Notes: generated from the letters alone by a model not told the origin. Numbered from the stretch's first letter, positions 3,213-9,327 are shown. The stretch is DNA of 21,393 nt from a virus (IMGVR_UViG_3300032770_000098:1-21393), one strand, 5' to 3'. Translations and numbers: made by a program.

Positions 3213-3476
3213 CTAGCTGCTGACCGCGACGCTGATATTTGCCGTGGAGGCCGTGACCCCGTACAGCGTCACAGGCGACTGCCCGAGGTAGTCCAGCAGC
3301 GTGAACGTGACGGGCACGTTCGCCGGCAGCGTGAATCCTGTGCTGGTCGTCACCGTGTTGCCGGTACCGGCCGCCGATGATGCCGAGGCCAGCAATGTGA
3401 CCGTCTGGCCGGGGGATACCGTGACGAGCTGTGTAGCGGCCGATGTGACCGCCACCTGCGTTAGCGTGAGCGCCAT
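3213..3476 (-). CDS. 87-aa beta-rich small virion protein
   Basis: An 87-aa Thr/Ser/Val/Ala-rich protein with almost no charge and no Cys. The run VTVSPGQTVTLLASASS is followed by a FTLPANVPVTFTLLDYLG strand pair, and the C-terminus is LYGVTASTANISVAVSS. This looks like a single beta-sandwich domain, as in phage decoration or surface-exposed proteins. It starts one base after the stop of the 106-aa gene and is followed after 12 nt by the adaptor, so it belongs to the virion operon. It may be a capsid or neck decoration protein. No named family recognised. Confidence 0.7.
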   Translation of the reverse strand: MALTLTQVAVTSAATQLVTVSPGQTVTLLASASSAAGTGNTVTTSTGFTLPANVPVTFTLLDYLGQSPVTLYGVTASTANISVAVSS

Positions 3477-3797
3477 TCAGTCACCGTCCGGGTTGCTGGT
3501 GAACGTCGCGATCAGGTCCGCTTTGGTCGCGCTGGCCGCTGCCGCCCGGTCCATCCCCTGCGAGATCGCGAAGTCCGTCCACACCTGCCGGTTCGCGGTG
3601 CGTTTCGGCAGCGGCGGGGCATCTGGCGGCGGTACGTCCTCTACCTCGCCGGCGGGTTCGGTCCAGCGGGTACCGTCCTCGTGGGCGCGCACGAGGTCCC
3701 CGCGGTCAAGGCGATGCTGGACACCGGGCGGGAGTGGGAGGTCGTGGACGTGCAGCATGCCGTTCTCGCCGAGGAACCAGATCTTGCCGGCCGTCAT
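3477..3797 (-). CDS. Connector-region protein with HeH/LEM-like C-terminus
   Basis: A 106-aa protein. The first 45 residues look like a small beta domain (GKIWFLGENGMLHVHDLPLP). An acidic proline-rich linker (about 50-62) follows. The C-terminal 35 residues (VWTDFAISQGMDRAAAAS, then TKADLIATF) match the short helix-extended-helix (HeH/LEM-like) element common at the ends of small phage head and neck proteins. The ATG overlaps the stop of the upstream glycosyltransferase (ATGA), giving translational coupling that ties the glycan cassette to the connector genes. Function is unknown; a minor head or neck protein fits the location. Confidence 0.75.
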   Translation of the reverse strand: MTAGKIWFLGENGMLHVHDLPLPPGVQHRLDRGDLVRAHEDGTRWTEPAGEVEDVPPPDAPPLPKRTANRQVWTDFAISQGMDRAAAASATKADLIATFTSNPDGD

Positions 3798-4528
3798 GTC
3801 ATCTCCCGGTAGTCCTGCGGGGGGACGTCACCCGCGAAACAGCGGGACTCCAGTGCCGTGAACTGGCCTGGCATGCAGTGCACGCCGCCGTGCTCGCCGA
3901 TGTGCTGTGACCGGGCCATGGCCGGCGCCATGATCCGCATGCCATGGCCGAGTACCCAGTGGTCGCGGATGCGCCAGTCCCAGCCGCGATAGGCGTAGGT
4001 GAAATCCCAGTCGCTGCGGAGCAGTTTCCGCCACCGGTCCCGCCATGTCGCCCACACCCACAGGTGCGGCGGGTCATCCCCGGCCCAGCGTGCGGGAGCG
4101 ATACCGGTGAGGCCGCCGGGCTGCGCGTCATGCTGGTGGGTAGTGATCCCGAGCACGCCCGGGTCATCCCGGTACCGCCGGTCGCACCAGGTGAAGTATT
4201 CGAGGACGTCAGCGGAGACGATCAGGTCCTCTTCGGCGAGGATCACGTACCGGGCGGCACTGAAGCCGTCCTCGAAGGCGTGCCACGGGTTCGTCAGCAC
4301 CCCGTAGCGGCGCGGGTTGACCGTGACCGTGGCCTCCGCGAAATCCACCGACCGGCACAGGCTCACCGCTTCAGGGCAGCCGGGTTCACAGCGGAACACC
4401 AGGCGTGCACCATCGATGCTGCGGACGTGTGCCCAGGACTCCAGTGTCCGGCGGAGGTAACCGGGCCGGGTGCTGACCGTGAAGACGACGGATGGTTTCA
4501 CCGGGGCCGGAACCATGACGGGGGGCAT
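3794..4528 (-). CDS. GnT-I-like GT-A glycosyltransferase
   Basis: Up to 244 aa. The N-terminal strand (SVVFTVSTRPGYLRRTLESW) is typical of GT-A nucleotide-sugar enzymes. The decisive piece is ILAEEDLIVSADVLEYF at about residues 96-112, which resembles the EDD-containing metal-binding strand of GnT-I / POMGnT enzymes, with Glu-Glu-Asp (99-101) as the metal-binding triad. These enzymes transfer GlcNAc or related sugars to glycans; substrate here is unknown. Three starts are possible: ATG 4528, ATG 4516, or GTG 4501, which overlaps the stop of the GT17-like gene as GTGA. None has a clear ribosome-binding site, so coupling is likely and the shortest form loses only nine residues. Last gene of the sugar cassette; it overlaps the next virion gene. 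Confidence 0.82.
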   Translation of the reverse strand: MPPVMVPAPVKPSVVFTVSTRPGYLRRTLESWAHVRSIDGARLVFRCEPGCPEAVSLCRSVDFAEATVTVNPRRYGVLTNPWHAFEDGFSAARYVILAEEDLIVSADVLEYFTWCDRRYRDDPGVLGITTHQHDAQPGGLTGIAPARWAGDDPPHLWVWATWRDRWRKLLRSDWDFTYAYRGWDWRIRDHWVLGHGMRIMAPAMARSQHIGEHGGVHCMPGQFTALESRCFAGDVPPQDYREMT

Positions 4529-5283
4529 TTACGCTGGGCGATCCACCATGGCCACGTCCCGTCCACCTCAACGGGGATCATCTGCGCCCCGCCGTGATGC
4601 GCCCCGTCCCGGTAGGCGGCGCCGCTGCCGATCCGGTCATGCTCGGCGGGAGTCATCTCTGAGTGGCAGTGCAGGCCGAGTTTGCGGCGCTGCTCATCAA
4701 GGCCACCCATCCAGGACAGGTGCCAGCCCGCATTCGTGATGCGAGGCAGGTCCCACCGCTGCGCGCGGAGCCACTGGAACCCGGCCACGTCCCGCACCCG
4801 GGCGGCGATCGTCCCGGGCCAGACGAGCCCCGGGTACTGCCAGTCGGCCGCGTACATGTAGTGGGCCTGCTCGAACACCAGGGGCGGTGATGGATCGTTA
4901 GCCACCCGCCAGACAGCCCCCGTCGCGGGGATCTCGTCCACATCCCCGTGCAGCACCACGTCATCAAGGTCCGCATCGGTGAGGCCTTCGCGTGTGTGCT
5001 CACGCTGCGCGTGCTCACGCTCCCACGGGTCCGGCGCGTCCGCCACCGAAGGCAGGTCGCTGGCGCTGACCGGGATATAGGTGATCCGGTCCGCCCACCG
5101 CGCGAACCGATCCCGGTGCTCCGGGAAGACCAGCGGCTTCAGCTCGCCGCGGTGCGTGATGTCCGCCTCAACGATCACATGCCGGTATATGGGCGCCCAT
5201 TCGAGTTCCACGAGGCGGCATTGCAGCATGTCCAGCTCAACGGGGGTGCCGGTGAACATGAACGTGTCATAAACCCTGGCCAC
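4498..5283 (-). CDS. GT17-like glycosyltransferase
   Basis: A 261-aa protein matching the Glyco_transf_17 family (beta-1,4-N-acetylglucosaminyltransferase-like). It has the N-terminal YDTFMFTGTPVELDMLQCRL signature (residues 5-24), HVIVEADITHRGELKPLVF (35-53), and the GDVDEIP acidic motif (113-119), the expected DxD-like metal and sugar-nucleotide site. The C-terminal half has the GWHLSWMGG segment also typical of the family. It starts with GTG at 5283, with GGAAGG 5 nt upstream, and overlaps the end of the methyltransferase. Family knowledge gives a sugar-transfer role; that the acceptor is a virion protein glycan is inference from position. Confidence 0.88.
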   Translation of the reverse strand: MARVYDTFMFTGTPVELDMLQCRLVELEWAPIYRHVIVEADITHRGELKPLVFPEHRDRFARWADRITYIPVSASDLPSVADAPDPWEREHAQREHTREGLTDADLDDVVLHGDVDEIPATGAVWRVANDPSPPLVFEQAHYMYAADWQYPGLVWPGTIAARVRDVAGFQWLRAQRWDLPRITNAGWHLSWMGGLDEQRRKLGLHCHSEMTPAEHDRIGSGAAYRDGAHHGGAQMIPVEVDGTWPWWIAQRKCPPSWFRPR

Positions 5284-5821
5284 AGTCGCCTTCCGCGATG
5301 AACGCCCCGGCAGTCAGGCCCGGCGGTGAGGCTGGCGGCCCGGTGAACGCGACGATCCCGGCGAAACTGGCCAGCACATCCGCCACGGTCCACTGGGCGA
5401 CGTGCGCCTCATGCGGGTTGCCCTCACATTCGCCTTGCGGGTACGGGTGCACCGGCAGCGTGAGGACCAGCAGCGGGCAGACGGTACGGGCGCGGCCCCA
5501 TACTTTCACCGCGTCCGCCATGGGCATGTGCTCCATGACGTCCCCGAACAGGTACAGCTCAGCTTCCGGGAGCGGGTCCAGGGTGCGGACGTCGGCGGTG
5601 ATCACCTGGTCGTAGGTGTGGTCCAGGCCGAACCGGGCCACGTACGGCTCCCAGATTTCGATCGCCGTCCACCTGGCCGCGAGCATCGACGGGCCGTAGA
5701 ACGTGCGCGCGGTCCCGGCGCCGGCTCCCACGTCCACCACGGACGGCAGTGCGGCGAGGTCGCAGCGGGCGCGCAGCCGGGACAGTACCCACGGCCGCCG
5801 GGCCGTCTCCGACCAGGGCAT
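5267..5821 (-). CDS. SAM-dependent methyltransferase, sugar-cassette member
   Basis: A 184-aa class I methyltransferase. Motif I is VVDVGAGAGTARTFY (residues 28-42), binding SAM; an acidic residue at the end of strand 2 is in AIEIWEPY (53-60); and LYLFGDVMEHM (89-99) is the motif IV region. It is short but complete for this fold. The ATG shares one base with the TAA of the upstream GT-B gene (TAATG) and has GGGAG just upstream. Sitting between glycosyltransferases, it most likely methylates a hydroxyl of the sugar being built, as FkbM-type or rhamnosyl O-methyltransferases do; I do not see an FkbM signature. DNA or protein methylation is less likely given the context. Confidence 0.85.
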   Translation of the reverse strand: MPWSETARRPWVLSRLRARCDLAALPSVVDVGAGAGTARTFYGPSMLAARWTAIEIWEPYVARFGLDHTYDQVITADVRTLDPLPEAELYLFGDVMEHMPMADAVKVWGRARTVCPLLVLTLPVHPYPQGECEGNPHEAHVAQWTVADVLASFAGIVAFTGPPASPPGLTAGAFIAEGDCGQGL

Positions 5822-6948
5822 TACTCCCAGCCAGCCATGATCTCAGCCAGGACCGTCTCCCACTGCGGCACCAGTGCGTCAGCGTCGTAGCCGAGCGCGA
5901 ACGCGCGAGCCTCTTCAGCCAGGTCAAGTGCCCGCTCACGCGCGTCATAGGCCTGCTCAAGCGCAGCCGTGATGCCGCTGACGTGGGGGGTGCACCACCA
6001 GGCCAGGTGCCCGTCATTCCAGTACGGTTCCCCGTCCACAAGCCAGCCCGCGCCGCACAGCTCCGTCATCGCCGAAGCGTCCGTGGTGATGACCGGCACG
6101 CCGCATGCCTGGAACTCGATCAGCGGCAGCCCGAACCCCTCCGCGCGGGTGGCCTGCAGTCCCACGTCACAGGCGTTACACCACAGGGCCATGTCCGCCG
6201 GGGTGTAGCTGCCGGTCGCGTACTTGTAGCTGTCCGACCATCTGACTGCATGCTGGATGCCGAGCCGCTGCACGAGGGCCGTCAGGTCCAGGCCAGGACC
6301 ACCCGGGACCGTATGAGCCAGCAGCAGCGAATCCGGGTGAGAGGCATGGAACACAGCGAATGCGGCGAGCTGCTCCTGCCACGCCTTCCGGTCCCGGTCC
6401 GCGTTCGTCGCGTTGATCCCGGCCACGAACGCGCTGCGGGGGATGCCGAGCCGGTCCCGGGCCGCGTCCCTGTCCTGCGGTGCGAACACCTTCGTATCGA
6501 CCGCGTGCGGTACGTACAGCGGCTTGAAGCCCGCGCGGCCGAGTTCCTGCCGGCCGAACTGGCTCACGGCGATGGGCGTCCCGCGGCCTTCCCGCAGGAT
6601 GTGCGCATCCCGCACCGACAAGGGCGTGCAGTCGACCGGCATCCAGTGCGCCACCGGCAGTGTCCGGATCACCTCAGGCTGCAGGCCCCAGGCGTCCATT
6701 ACCGTCAGGACCAGGTCCGCTTTCCAGTCCTTCGCATGCCCGGCTAGCACATCGTTACCGCATGGGTTCATTCCGCCCGGGTAGACGGGGATGCCGTTCC
6801 ATGTGATCCGCGTCCCGGACAGGCCGCAGAATGCGGCGATAGCAACGTTGTGGCCGAGGGAGGCGAGCCGTGGTGCCAGCAGGGCGGCCTGCTGCGCATA
6901 CGCGGACGGCAGCCACGGGCCGTTCGTGTCGATGAGCATGTTTGACAC
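5821..6948 (-). CDS. GT4-like GT-B glycosyltransferase
   Basis: A 375-aa retaining GT-B enzyme. The N-terminal domain has LAPRLASLGHNVAIAAF (residues 24-40), and an HWMPVD segment is at about 101-106. The C-terminal nucleotide-sugar domain carries the E-x7-E motif EGFGLPLIEF with Glu270 and Glu278, followed by ACGVPVITTDA. Length and domain order are normal for GT4. It transfers a sugar from an NDP-sugar, probably as the first step of the cassette. The start is GTG 6948, preceded by GGGGGGTGAG; ATG 6939 is the alternative. It follows the decoration-like gene by 30 nt without a terminator, so it is expressed with the capsid genes. Confidence 0.9.
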   Translation of the reverse strand: MSNMLIDTNGPWLPSAYAQQAALLAPRLASLGHNVAIAAFCGLSGTRITWNGIPVYPGGMNPCGNDVLAGHAKDWKADLVLTVMDAWGLQPEVIRTLPVAHWMPVDCTPLSVRDAHILREGRGTPIAVSQFGRQELGRAGFKPLYVPHAVDTKVFAPQDRDAARDRLGIPRSAFVAGINATNADRDRKAWQEQLAAFAVFHASHPDSLLLAHTVPGGPGLDLTALVQRLGIQHAVRWSDSYKYATGSYTPADMALWCNACDVGLQATRAEGFGLPLIEFQACGVPVITTDASAMTELCGAGWLVDGEPYWNDGHLAWWCTPHVSGITAALEQAYDARERALDLAEEARAFALGYDADALVPQWETVLAEIMAGWE

Positions 6949-6978: not shown

Positions 6979-7410
6979 TCAGATCTGGTTGAACGGCCCC
7001 TGGATGACCGCGTAGGTTACCGGGCCACTGACCGTCGACCAGTCAAGGTACAGGTTCCCGTCGGACTGCTCGAACCGGTCCGTGGTGAACGGCCCTACGA
7101 TCGCCGTGCCCGCCGTGGTGCCCCACGCATAGGTCAGGTCACCGACGGACCCCTGCGTGAATACGCCGTTGGACGGGTACGGGCTGGTCTGCGCGGTCCC
7201 GGCGACATTGTTGCCGTTGCCGGTCGCCCGGACGGTCAGCGTGCCCGCCGTGGTGCCCCACTGGACAGCCAGGGTCACCTTCCCCAGATTTGCCGTGGAC
7301 AGGGTGCCGGCCGCCACATAGTCACCCGCAGTGTGCGGGGTGTTCCACGTCACGGCGGCGCCGCTGTCCTTGGCCAGGGCGGTGACCGTGGCAAGGGTGC
7401 GTGCTGTCAT
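6979..7410 (-). CDS. Decoration-like protein downstream of major capsid
   Basis: A 143-aa Thr/Gly/Val-rich protein, almost all predicted beta strand, encoded 18 nt after the major capsid gene. This is the usual place for a capsid decoration or head-stabilising protein. It contains two copies of a QWGTTAGT / AWGTTAGT strand, encoded by an exact 22-nt direct repeat (7105-7126 and 7240-7261), suggesting internal duplication. The C-terminus (IVGPFTTDRFEQSDGNLYL, then a TVSGPVTYAVIQ strand) is similar to that of the 121-aa protein at 11-376. The ATG at 7410 has AGGAG 6 nt upstream. With many surface Thr and Ser residues, it is a plausible acceptor for the adjacent glycosyltransferases; that is inference. 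Confidence 0.8.
   Translation of the reverse strand: MTARTLATVTALAKDSGAAVTWNTPHTAGDYVAAGTLSTANLGKVTLAVQWGTTAGTLTVRATGNGNNVAGTAQTSPYPSNGVFTQGSVGDLTYAWGTTAGTAIVGPFTTDRFEQSDGNLYLDWSTVSGPVTYAVIQGPFNQI
7105..7261. repeat. 22-nt direct repeat within decoration-like gene
   Basis: An identical 22-base string lies at 7105-7126 and 7240-7261, in the same reading frame, encoding the two WGTTAGT strands. Conservation at third positions suggests a recent duplication or gene conversion rather than chance. Confidence 0.8.
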
Positions 7411-7428: not shown

Positions 7429-8313
7429 TCAGATGCCGGCCGGGCGGGTGACGTAGGCGACGGCGATGGCGTCGGGGCGGACCAGCTTGGCACCGAACAC
7501 GTGCAGGCCCCGGACGCCATCAGCGAACGTGGTCTGAAGCCTCAGTGCTTCCGTCTGGACGATCTGCTCGGCGTAGGTCAGCGCCATCGGGTGGCCGGCC
7601 TGCACAATCCAGTTGGACCCGGAGTAGTTGACGGCGTTGTTCGACACGTAGATGTCGAAGCCGGCGGCGCGGCCGATCATGCCGGTCGTGAACACCTCGG
7701 ACGGCTGGCCCTGCATGTCGGTGATCGCGATGAACGCCTGGGTCTGCTCCAGCAGCGCTTCCGCCCACGGGGGGACCACGACGTAGCGGCCCTGCATGGG
7801 GATGTTCGCCTGCGAGAGCTGCACCTTCAGTGGCAGGAGAACCTGCTGGTAGAAGTCCGCCGGGGTCGTCGAGGAGTACACGGCGGGAGTCTTCGGGGAA
7901 CCGGAGGTGCCGACCGTGTTACCGGACGCGACACCCGTGTAGAGGCCGGCGATGTACTGGTCGGCGTTGTCGGCCAGCTTGTAGGAGGCTCGTTCTTCCA
8001 GGTACGACTGCATGTCACCCGCGGCCTGCCGCCGGTCCACGTCGTCGACGCTGAAGCTGAACGAGTACGCCTGGTCGATGTTGAGGTCCAGGCCGGCGTC
8101 GTTGAGAGCCTGGTAGGTCAGGGTGCTGTTCGGCGTGTACGAGGTGATCACGGGGTCGCCGAACTGCGTGATGTGCACGACGTTGCCGGGGCCGCTGATC
8201 TCGCCCTCGTAGTCGTTGTTGACGATGCCGGGGCCACCGAACACAAGGTTCTTCTGCAGGGCAGCAAGGATGACCTTGCTCCAGATTTCGGGCTTAAATG
8301 CCAAAACCGACAT
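7429..8313 (-). CDS. Major capsid protein (HK97 fold)
   Basis: A 294-aa protein that fits the phage major capsid protein in size and in position directly after the scaffold gene. The N-terminus MSVLAFKPEIWSKVILAAL and the VNNDYEGEISGPGNVVHI segment (about 31-48) are typical of actinophage and P22-type coat proteins. The middle (ERASYKLADNADQYIAGLY) is the spine-helix region, and the C-terminal half has GRYVVVPPWAEALLEQ and DIYVSNNAV strand-helix pairs of the A domain. No protease-cleaved delta domain is visible, which agrees with a separate scaffold. The ribosome site is AGGTGG, 6 nt before the ATG. A small hairpin (8338-8351) lies in its leader. Confidence 0.9.
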   Translation of the reverse strand: MSVLAFKPEIWSKVILAALQKNLVFGGPGIVNNDYEGEISGPGNVVHITQFGDPVITSYTPNSTLTYQALNDAGLDLNIDQAYSFSFSVDDVDRRQAAGDMQSYLEERASYKLADNADQYIAGLYTGVASGNTVGTSGSPKTPAVYSSTTPADFYQQVLLPLKVQLSQANIPMQGRYVVVPPWAEALLEQTQAFIAITDMQGQPSEVFTTGMIGRAAGFDIYVSNNAVNYSGSNWIVQAGHPMALTYAEQIVQTEALRLQTTFADGVRGLHVFGAKLVRPDAIAVAYVTRPAGI

Positions 8314-9299: not shown

Positions 9300-9322
9300 A
9301 AAAAACCCCGCACTAGGCGGGG
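9300..9322 (-). terminator. Intrinsic terminator inside the late operon
   Basis: On the minus strand a 6-bp GC stem (CCCCGC / GCGGGG, loop CTAGT) is followed by six T. It would end transcripts arriving from the minor capsid gene before they reach scaffold and capsid. No clear promoter lies between it and the scaffold start. Confidence 0.75.
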
Positions 9323-9327
9323 CGGCT

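Follow-up and report, generated by a model that had tools for sequence, protein, structure and literature searches.

Gene content and integrity of the locus

The window, by which we mean the whole stretch of DNA analysed, is a 21.4 kb IMG/VR virus record (IMGVR_UViG_3300032770_000098:1-21393) of a soil-bog phage. Its minus strand carries a head operon typical of tailed phages, in which a small terminase-like gene is followed by genes for the large terminase, the portal, a minor head protein, a scaffold-like protein, and the major capsid protein (MCP), and then by genes for a 143-aa beta-rich protein, four enzymes, a connector, a small Ig-like protein, and a head-tail adaptor. The part of the operon considered here comprises the following features.

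7429-8313, minus strand: major capsid protein (phrog_267, 4.9e-68); flank and alternative acceptor
6979-7410, minus strand: putative head decoration protein, 143 aa, so named from its position after the MCP; proposed acceptor and part of the block that was probably exchanged
5821-6948, minus strand: GT4-type GT-B glycosyltransferase, 375 aa, GTG start (PF13692, phrog_2170, E-x7-E)
5267-5821, minus strand: SAM-dependent class I methyltransferase, 184 aa (weak PF08241, AlphaFold model, Foldseek)
4498-5283, minus strand: GT17-family glycosyltransferase, 261 aa, motif DVDE (PF04724, 1.5e-22)
3794-4528, minus strand: GnT-I/GnT-II-like GT-A glycosyltransferase, 244 aa, EED metal motif (PF05060, 2.8e-7)
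3477-3797, minus strand: head-tail connector (phrog_2322, 8.5e-11); flank
3213-3476, minus strand: small Ig-like/beta protein, a small variable gene outside the module, present in the window and missing from its close relatives L003 and L143
2451-3200, minus strand: head-tail adaptor (phrog_541, 1.5e-11); flank

An earlier note on this DNA had placed four overlapping genes between the capsid/decoration and connector genes, the last of them overlapping the next structural gene by ATGA. Both points are borne out at the positions listed, and the four genes are intact: the overlaps between enzyme genes are 1, 17, and 31 bases, and the GnT-like gene shares the four bases ATGA (3794-3797) with the connector gene. 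Judging from these overlaps, the four enzyme genes and the connector gene are probably translationally coupled. No promoter-like site was found in the region, and no terminator-like site within the cassette, the counts in both scans being at chance level. A terminator-like stem-loop with a T run lies at 9305-9323 on the minus strand, between the minor head and scaffold genes, its count likewise being at chance level. Two plus-strand open reading frames at 1436-2083 (1436-1759 and 1805-2083), opposite the late genes, look membrane-spanning. A PADLOC search gave no match to an anti-phage defence family.

The first enzyme belongs to GT4 (Glycos_transf_1): it has a C-terminal GT-B donor domain with an intact E-x7-E motif (E-GFGLPLI-E, read from the translation), matches PF13692 (Glyco_trans_1_4) at 2.5e-9, with both PF13692 and PF00534 above cut-off, and matches phrog_2170 at 1.3e-27. 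NCBIfam gave only weak generic GT4 matches on the cassette, far below cut-offs. The second enzyme matches PF08241 (Methyltransf_11) weakly, at 0.049, and carries the motif VVDVGAGAGT. Its AlphaFold model (pLDDT 83) has the class I SAM methyltransferase fold, and the Foldseek matches are class I methyltransferases, many of them small-molecule O-methyltransferases. Its relatives adjoin glycosyltransferase genes, as does Phrappuccino gp145, which it matches. Methyltransf_11 is its only Pfam match; unlike methyltransferases that occupy this slot in other phages, the window protein matches no known sugar O-methyltransferase family (RMNT_CmcI, TylF). We infer that it is a sugar O-methyltransferase.

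The third enzyme is a member of GT17: PF04724 (Glyco_transf_17) is matched with 80.6 bits against a cut-off of 26, and residues D114, D116, and E117 are invariant in 17 aligned sequences. Its profile found nothing convincing in the PDB. The GnT-like enzyme matches MGAT2 (PF05060) above cut-off, with GNT-I following at 0.027. A profile of 17 family sequences found POMGNT1 (3.9e-16), GnT-I (4e-10), and GnT-II (5.5e-4) in the PDB, and the top 13 Foldseek matches of the AlphaFold model (pLDDT 92) are all GnT-I, POMGNT1, or MGAT2. Since MGAT2 is best in Pfam, while POMGNT1 and GnT-I are best by PDB profile and fold, the enzyme is assigned to the GT13/GT16 fold group. Its relationship to GnT-I, POMGNT1, and MGAT2 is genuine by profile and predicted fold alike, and beta-1,2 GlcNAc transfer may be its activity. 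This fold group is best known from eukaryotic glycan branching, and the fold is that of the human enzymes that start protein-sugar branching. The profile searches and structure models recovered the families proposed in the earlier note (GT4, methyltransferase, GT17, and a GnT-I-like GT-A enzyme), with the methyltransferase found by profile only as a weak Methyltransf_11 match and the label "GnT-I-like" giving way to MGAT2 as the best Pfam match.

Catalytic motifs are present in all four enzymes. Measured against L003 (80-88% protein identity), dN/dS is 0.16, 0.25, 0.29, and 0.28 for the GT4, methyltransferase, GT17, and GnT-like genes, respectively, which resembles the values of the structural genes. 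All four enzyme genes are under purifying selection, and the low ratios imply that the four reading frames are not there by chance.

Genomic settings of the cassette relatives

IMG/VR was searched by pattern with the GT4 and GT17 enzymes, without selection for capsid neighbours but with queries seeded on this cassette; the records of the window and its relatives are for the most part fragmentary. Among the 58 GT4 loci with at least 1.5 kb of upstream DNA, which were counted as testable, a recognised capsid gene stands no more than 2 kb upstream in 56, and L050 adds a 57th (PF05065); in the lone exception, L017, the locus comes after a tail terminator. On the downstream side of the GT4 gene, 39 of 42 loci have a neck, adaptor, or tail-completion gene within 4 kb. 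Of the 11 testable clusters left once GT4s had been merged at 60% identity, 10 were capsid-adjacent. Glycosyltransferase genes are linked to virion genes in the window and its relatives, and homologues in the GT4 and GT17 subfamilies of small phages do not occur mainly beside cell-wall or DNA-modification genes, the setting that the earlier note had named as evidence against it.

Partner genes in the slot vary: a GT2, an NDP-sugar epimerase or RmlD-like gene, rhamnosyl/macrocin-type O-methyltransferases, or none. The MCPs of the window, Mae-JY09, and phrog_10-type phages show no significant BLAST similarity to each other, that of L050 is marginally similar by BLAST to phrog_10-type MCPs, and the GT4s of these phages are ~32-44% identical to the window GT4. 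One and the same slot holds a GT4 with varying sugar-modifying enzymes in three or more capsid lineages whose BLAST similarity is absent or marginal. Weaker GT4 relatives in S-EIVl and RM378 adjoin primase and DNA polymerase genes, so the capsid association belongs to this GT4 subfamily and not to phage glycosyltransferases at large. L005-type phages have one or two sugar-O-methyltransferase-like genes in the capsid-adaptor slot (L068:7801-8310, L005:6777-7346), matching Methyltransf_24 with TylF or RMNT_CmcI. In Mae-JY09, WWT39945 (L010:9712-10629), annotated as hypothetical, is an NAD-dependent epimerase (6e-32) in the capsid-adjacent sugar island.

The slot might be a cargo hotspot that merely tolerates insertions, its enzymes having assorted unrelated roles. 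In L003, a gene for a 193-aa Rv2179c-like 3'-5' exoribonuclease (L003:7487-8068; PF16473, 6e-12), missing in the window, lies between the GnT-like and connector genes, so the slot takes other cargo too; HNH genes are found nearby in L050 and S-CBS4. Yet slot contents are overwhelmingly sugar-active and methylating, and behind the head genes the GT4 gene comes first in almost every locus; we give an indiscriminate hotspot very little credence.

Near relatives aside, the closest homologues of the GT4 (46-51% identity), GT17 (51-54%), and GnT-like (up to 49%) enzymes are mostly in large (~100-140 kb) phages, in clusters not beside the capsid genes; most occurrences of the GnT-like enzyme are in Magritte and other large phages, many of whose contigs measure 95-146 kb. 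These sugar clusters join the GnT-like gene with GT17, GT4, and UDP-glucose dehydrogenase or epimerase genes; in Magritte-like phages they are upstream of the terminase gene, elsewhere at a distance from it. About nine other phage contigs, mostly 100-140 kb, carry both GT17 and GnT-like genes, usually not capsid-adjacent; the pairing, described as unusual in the earlier note, is therefore not unique. On the GT17 tree, the setting must have switched at least three times between capsid-adjacent and large-phage. A tyrosine integrase gene (L120:9145-10209) comes immediately after a GT17/UGDH/methyltransferase/GnT-like/GT4 cluster in L120, a phage contig of 120 kb, which hints that the homologues in that phage may modify the host. 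The large-phage settings and this integrase indicate that the enzymes are not tied to the capsid everywhere and that host-surface modification is possible there.

The same could hold for the window, its enzymes altering cell-wall or exopolysaccharide sugars in lysogenic conversion or superinfection exclusion; sets of glycosyltransferases and methyltransferases are typical of surface polysaccharides, and the L120 cluster with its integrase neighbour is homologous. Three observations speak against host-surface modification here and make it unlikely: the late head-operon position is kept across unrelated capsids, the cassette has no membrane or lipid-carrier enzyme, and among 297 genomes in the presumed host phylum, GT17 and GnT-like genes are all but missing. 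In these genomes, the GT17 profile found one match, the phage contig itself, and the GnT-like profile found five, the phage contig included and the other four weaker. A host cell-wall origin of the enzymes was rejected on the same counts. A near-copy (99.5%) of the L003 phage region (L126:1-6202) was binned with an Actinomycetota MAG from a peat bog, which suggests that the host is actinobacterial.

Phages like this one are exposed to restriction, and the enzymes could instead glycosylate and methylate modified bases of phage DNA, which would then escape it. Such hypermodification would be in keeping with the frequent action of phage glycosyltransferases on DNA (PMC12619734, citing Pyle 2024). 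It is, in our view, quite improbable, because the cassette genes stand among late head genes, NDP-sugar epimerases and rhamnosyl/macrocin-type O-methyltransferases occupy the same slot, and the glycosyltransferase folds are those of protein and saccharide enzymes. Moreover, a PF00303 thymidylate synthase/hydroxymethylase gene was found in none of 30 records, most of them fragments and two of them complete GT4-island genomes; modified bases may also arise by other routes.

Empty site, probable block exchange, and candidate acceptor

L143 is closely related to the window (MCP 95%, portal 78%, and adaptor 78% identical) and has an empty site: its decoration gene is directly followed by the connector gene, without the cassette. 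The L143 decoration protein is only 56% identical in amino acid sequence to that of the window. In Jace, phiSASD1, and D6E, whose MCPs are 37-41% identical to the window MCP, there is no cassette gene in the stretch read.

Comparison of the window with L003 at four-fold synonymous sites revealed a block of raised identity. Identity is 54-57% in the minor head, scaffold, and MCP genes (0.57 in the MCP gene), rises to 81% for the decoration gene, is 70-76% across the four enzyme genes, and falls back to 52-56% in the connector and adaptor genes. With counts rebuilt from rounded percentages, the cassette differs from its flanks at p = 3.5e-9 and the decoration gene from the MCP gene at p = 2.8e-4. 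Codon bias is not the explanation, since third-position GC of the block is not above that of the MCP gene. In this one pair of relatives, the decoration gene and the four enzyme genes were probably exchanged as one unit; independently of this, the decoration gene may be fast-evolving.

The 6979-7410 product is a putative decoration protein by its position, size, and beta-rich, Ser/Thr-rich make-up (24% Ser+Thr); its sole family match is phrog_24894 (7e-5), a family of no known function. It has no N-x-S/T sequon, which, together with the Ser/Thr content, favours O-linked or other attachment of a glycan over N-linkage. Because the cassette appears to be exchanged as a block with this gene, we propose the decoration-like protein as the likeliest glycan acceptor, ahead of the MCP and the Ig-like protein.

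Within the same reading, and not exclusive of the decoration-like protein, the MCP (or tail proteins) could be the acceptor, as in Che8. In phiPsal1-type phages there is no gene between the MCP and GT4 genes, which makes the MCP the sole partner common to all, and mycobacteriophage glycans are reported on the C-termini of capsid and tail tube proteins (PMC12619734). On the other hand, the MCP is nearly the same in cassette-less L143 as in the window, and the exchanged block ends between the MCP and decoration genes. We regard this variant as a serious possibility, though not a probable one. The Ig-like protein was rejected: L003 has the whole cassette and no Ig-like gene (L003:8647-8916 was considered as a counterpart and rejected), so that such a protein is not a plausible required acceptor. 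Of the earlier note's proposal, virion glycosylation itself is supported by gene position and comparison across phages, and of its three suggested acceptors (capsid, decoration, or Ig-like protein) the decoration protein is best supported, while the Ig-like one falls away.

Proposed function and known systems

We consider it likely, with a probability of roughly 0.7, that the cassette is a virion-glycosylation module that builds a short methylated glycan on the head surface, likeliest on the decoration-like protein. We infer the order of reactions, the donors, the acceptor, and the benefit of the glycan as follows. The cassette would be transcribed with the late head genes, and the GT4 enzyme would attach or start the sugar on a co-produced protein of the head surface; we place it as the starter or an early enzyme because it is the sole constant member across slots. 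The GT17 and GnT-I/II-like enzymes would add one or two further sugars, probably from UDP-activated donors, and the methyltransferase would cap the chain with an O-methyl group. The attachment point would likeliest be a Ser or Thr of the decoration-like protein, with the MCP as second choice. The resulting coat may mask or modify the surface of the particle, for instance to counter host or environmental binding, or may adjust adsorption.

A broader view, which we put forward tentatively and hold to be less probable than its opposite, is that a GT4-subfamily head-glycosylation island, widespread and unnamed so far, is fixed in the capsid-connector slot and moves between unrelated capsids, in this phage with GnT-I/II and GnT-III relatives that would make branched methylated glycans on the co-exchanged decoration protein. 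So far, the phages with demonstrated virion glycosylation are a handful of mycobacteriophages. If the slot is indeed fixed and its sugar enzymes are swappable, such glycosylation could be predicted for many environmental phages from their sequences, and natural cassette-plus/cassette-minus pairs would be at hand for direct tests. The GT13/GT16 fold group would also gain phage relatives, and the decoration protein would stand out as a sugar carrier that is exchanged separately.

Phage enzymes glycosylate virion proteins of Che8, Corndog, and Myrna (PMC12363180, PMC11256854, and PMC12619734, citing Freeman et al. 2023), and in Rhodococcus phages a glycosyltransferase and a methyltransferase have been read as a hint of glycosylated virions (PMC13313380). 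Virion glycosylation by phage enzymes is therefore already known as a kind. As in those actinobacteriophages, phage-encoded glycosyltransferases are proposed here, from the genes, to modify the phage's own virion proteins. In Che8-related Maravista, however, the glycosyltransferase genes lie near the 3' end of the genome (PMC11256854), whereas in the window they belong to a four-enzyme set with GT17 and GnT-like members, in a fixed slot between capsid and connector genes. A tblastn search with the three cassette glycosyltransferases gave no mycobacteriophage match and hence no detectable homology to Che8-type enzymes. The enzyme make-up is new, as are the constancy of the slot among unrelated capsids, the pair with an empty site, and the linkage to the decoration gene; an open-access literature search found no description of this island.

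The closest parallels in position are Pontimonas phage phiPsal1, whose report says nothing on its genes (PMC6106888), and Microcystis phage Mae-JY09. In both, the head genes are immediately followed by a GT4 relative (35-42% identity), and the neck/adaptor genes come after it, but the partners are GT2, methyltransferase, or epimerase genes in place of GT17 and GnT-like ones, and the capsid proteins are unrelated. L005-type uncultured phages (~40 IMG/VR contigs) share GT4, GT17 (39-47%), and O-methyltransferase genes between the MCP and adaptor genes; they differ in a GT4 fused to a GT2, another, rhamnosyl-O-methyltransferase-like, methyltransferase family, and a phrog_10 capsid. Microbacterium phage Magritte and related large phages have the GnT-like gene in their sugar cluster upstream of the terminase gene, but with UDP-glucose dehydrogenase present and outside the capsid-connector slot. 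Eukaryotic GnT-I, POMGNT1, and GnT-II (GT13/GT16) share with the phage enzyme the GT-A fold subtype and the conserved acidic metal motif; identity in fold alignments is 15-18%, and the phage enzyme differs from them in having no membrane stem.
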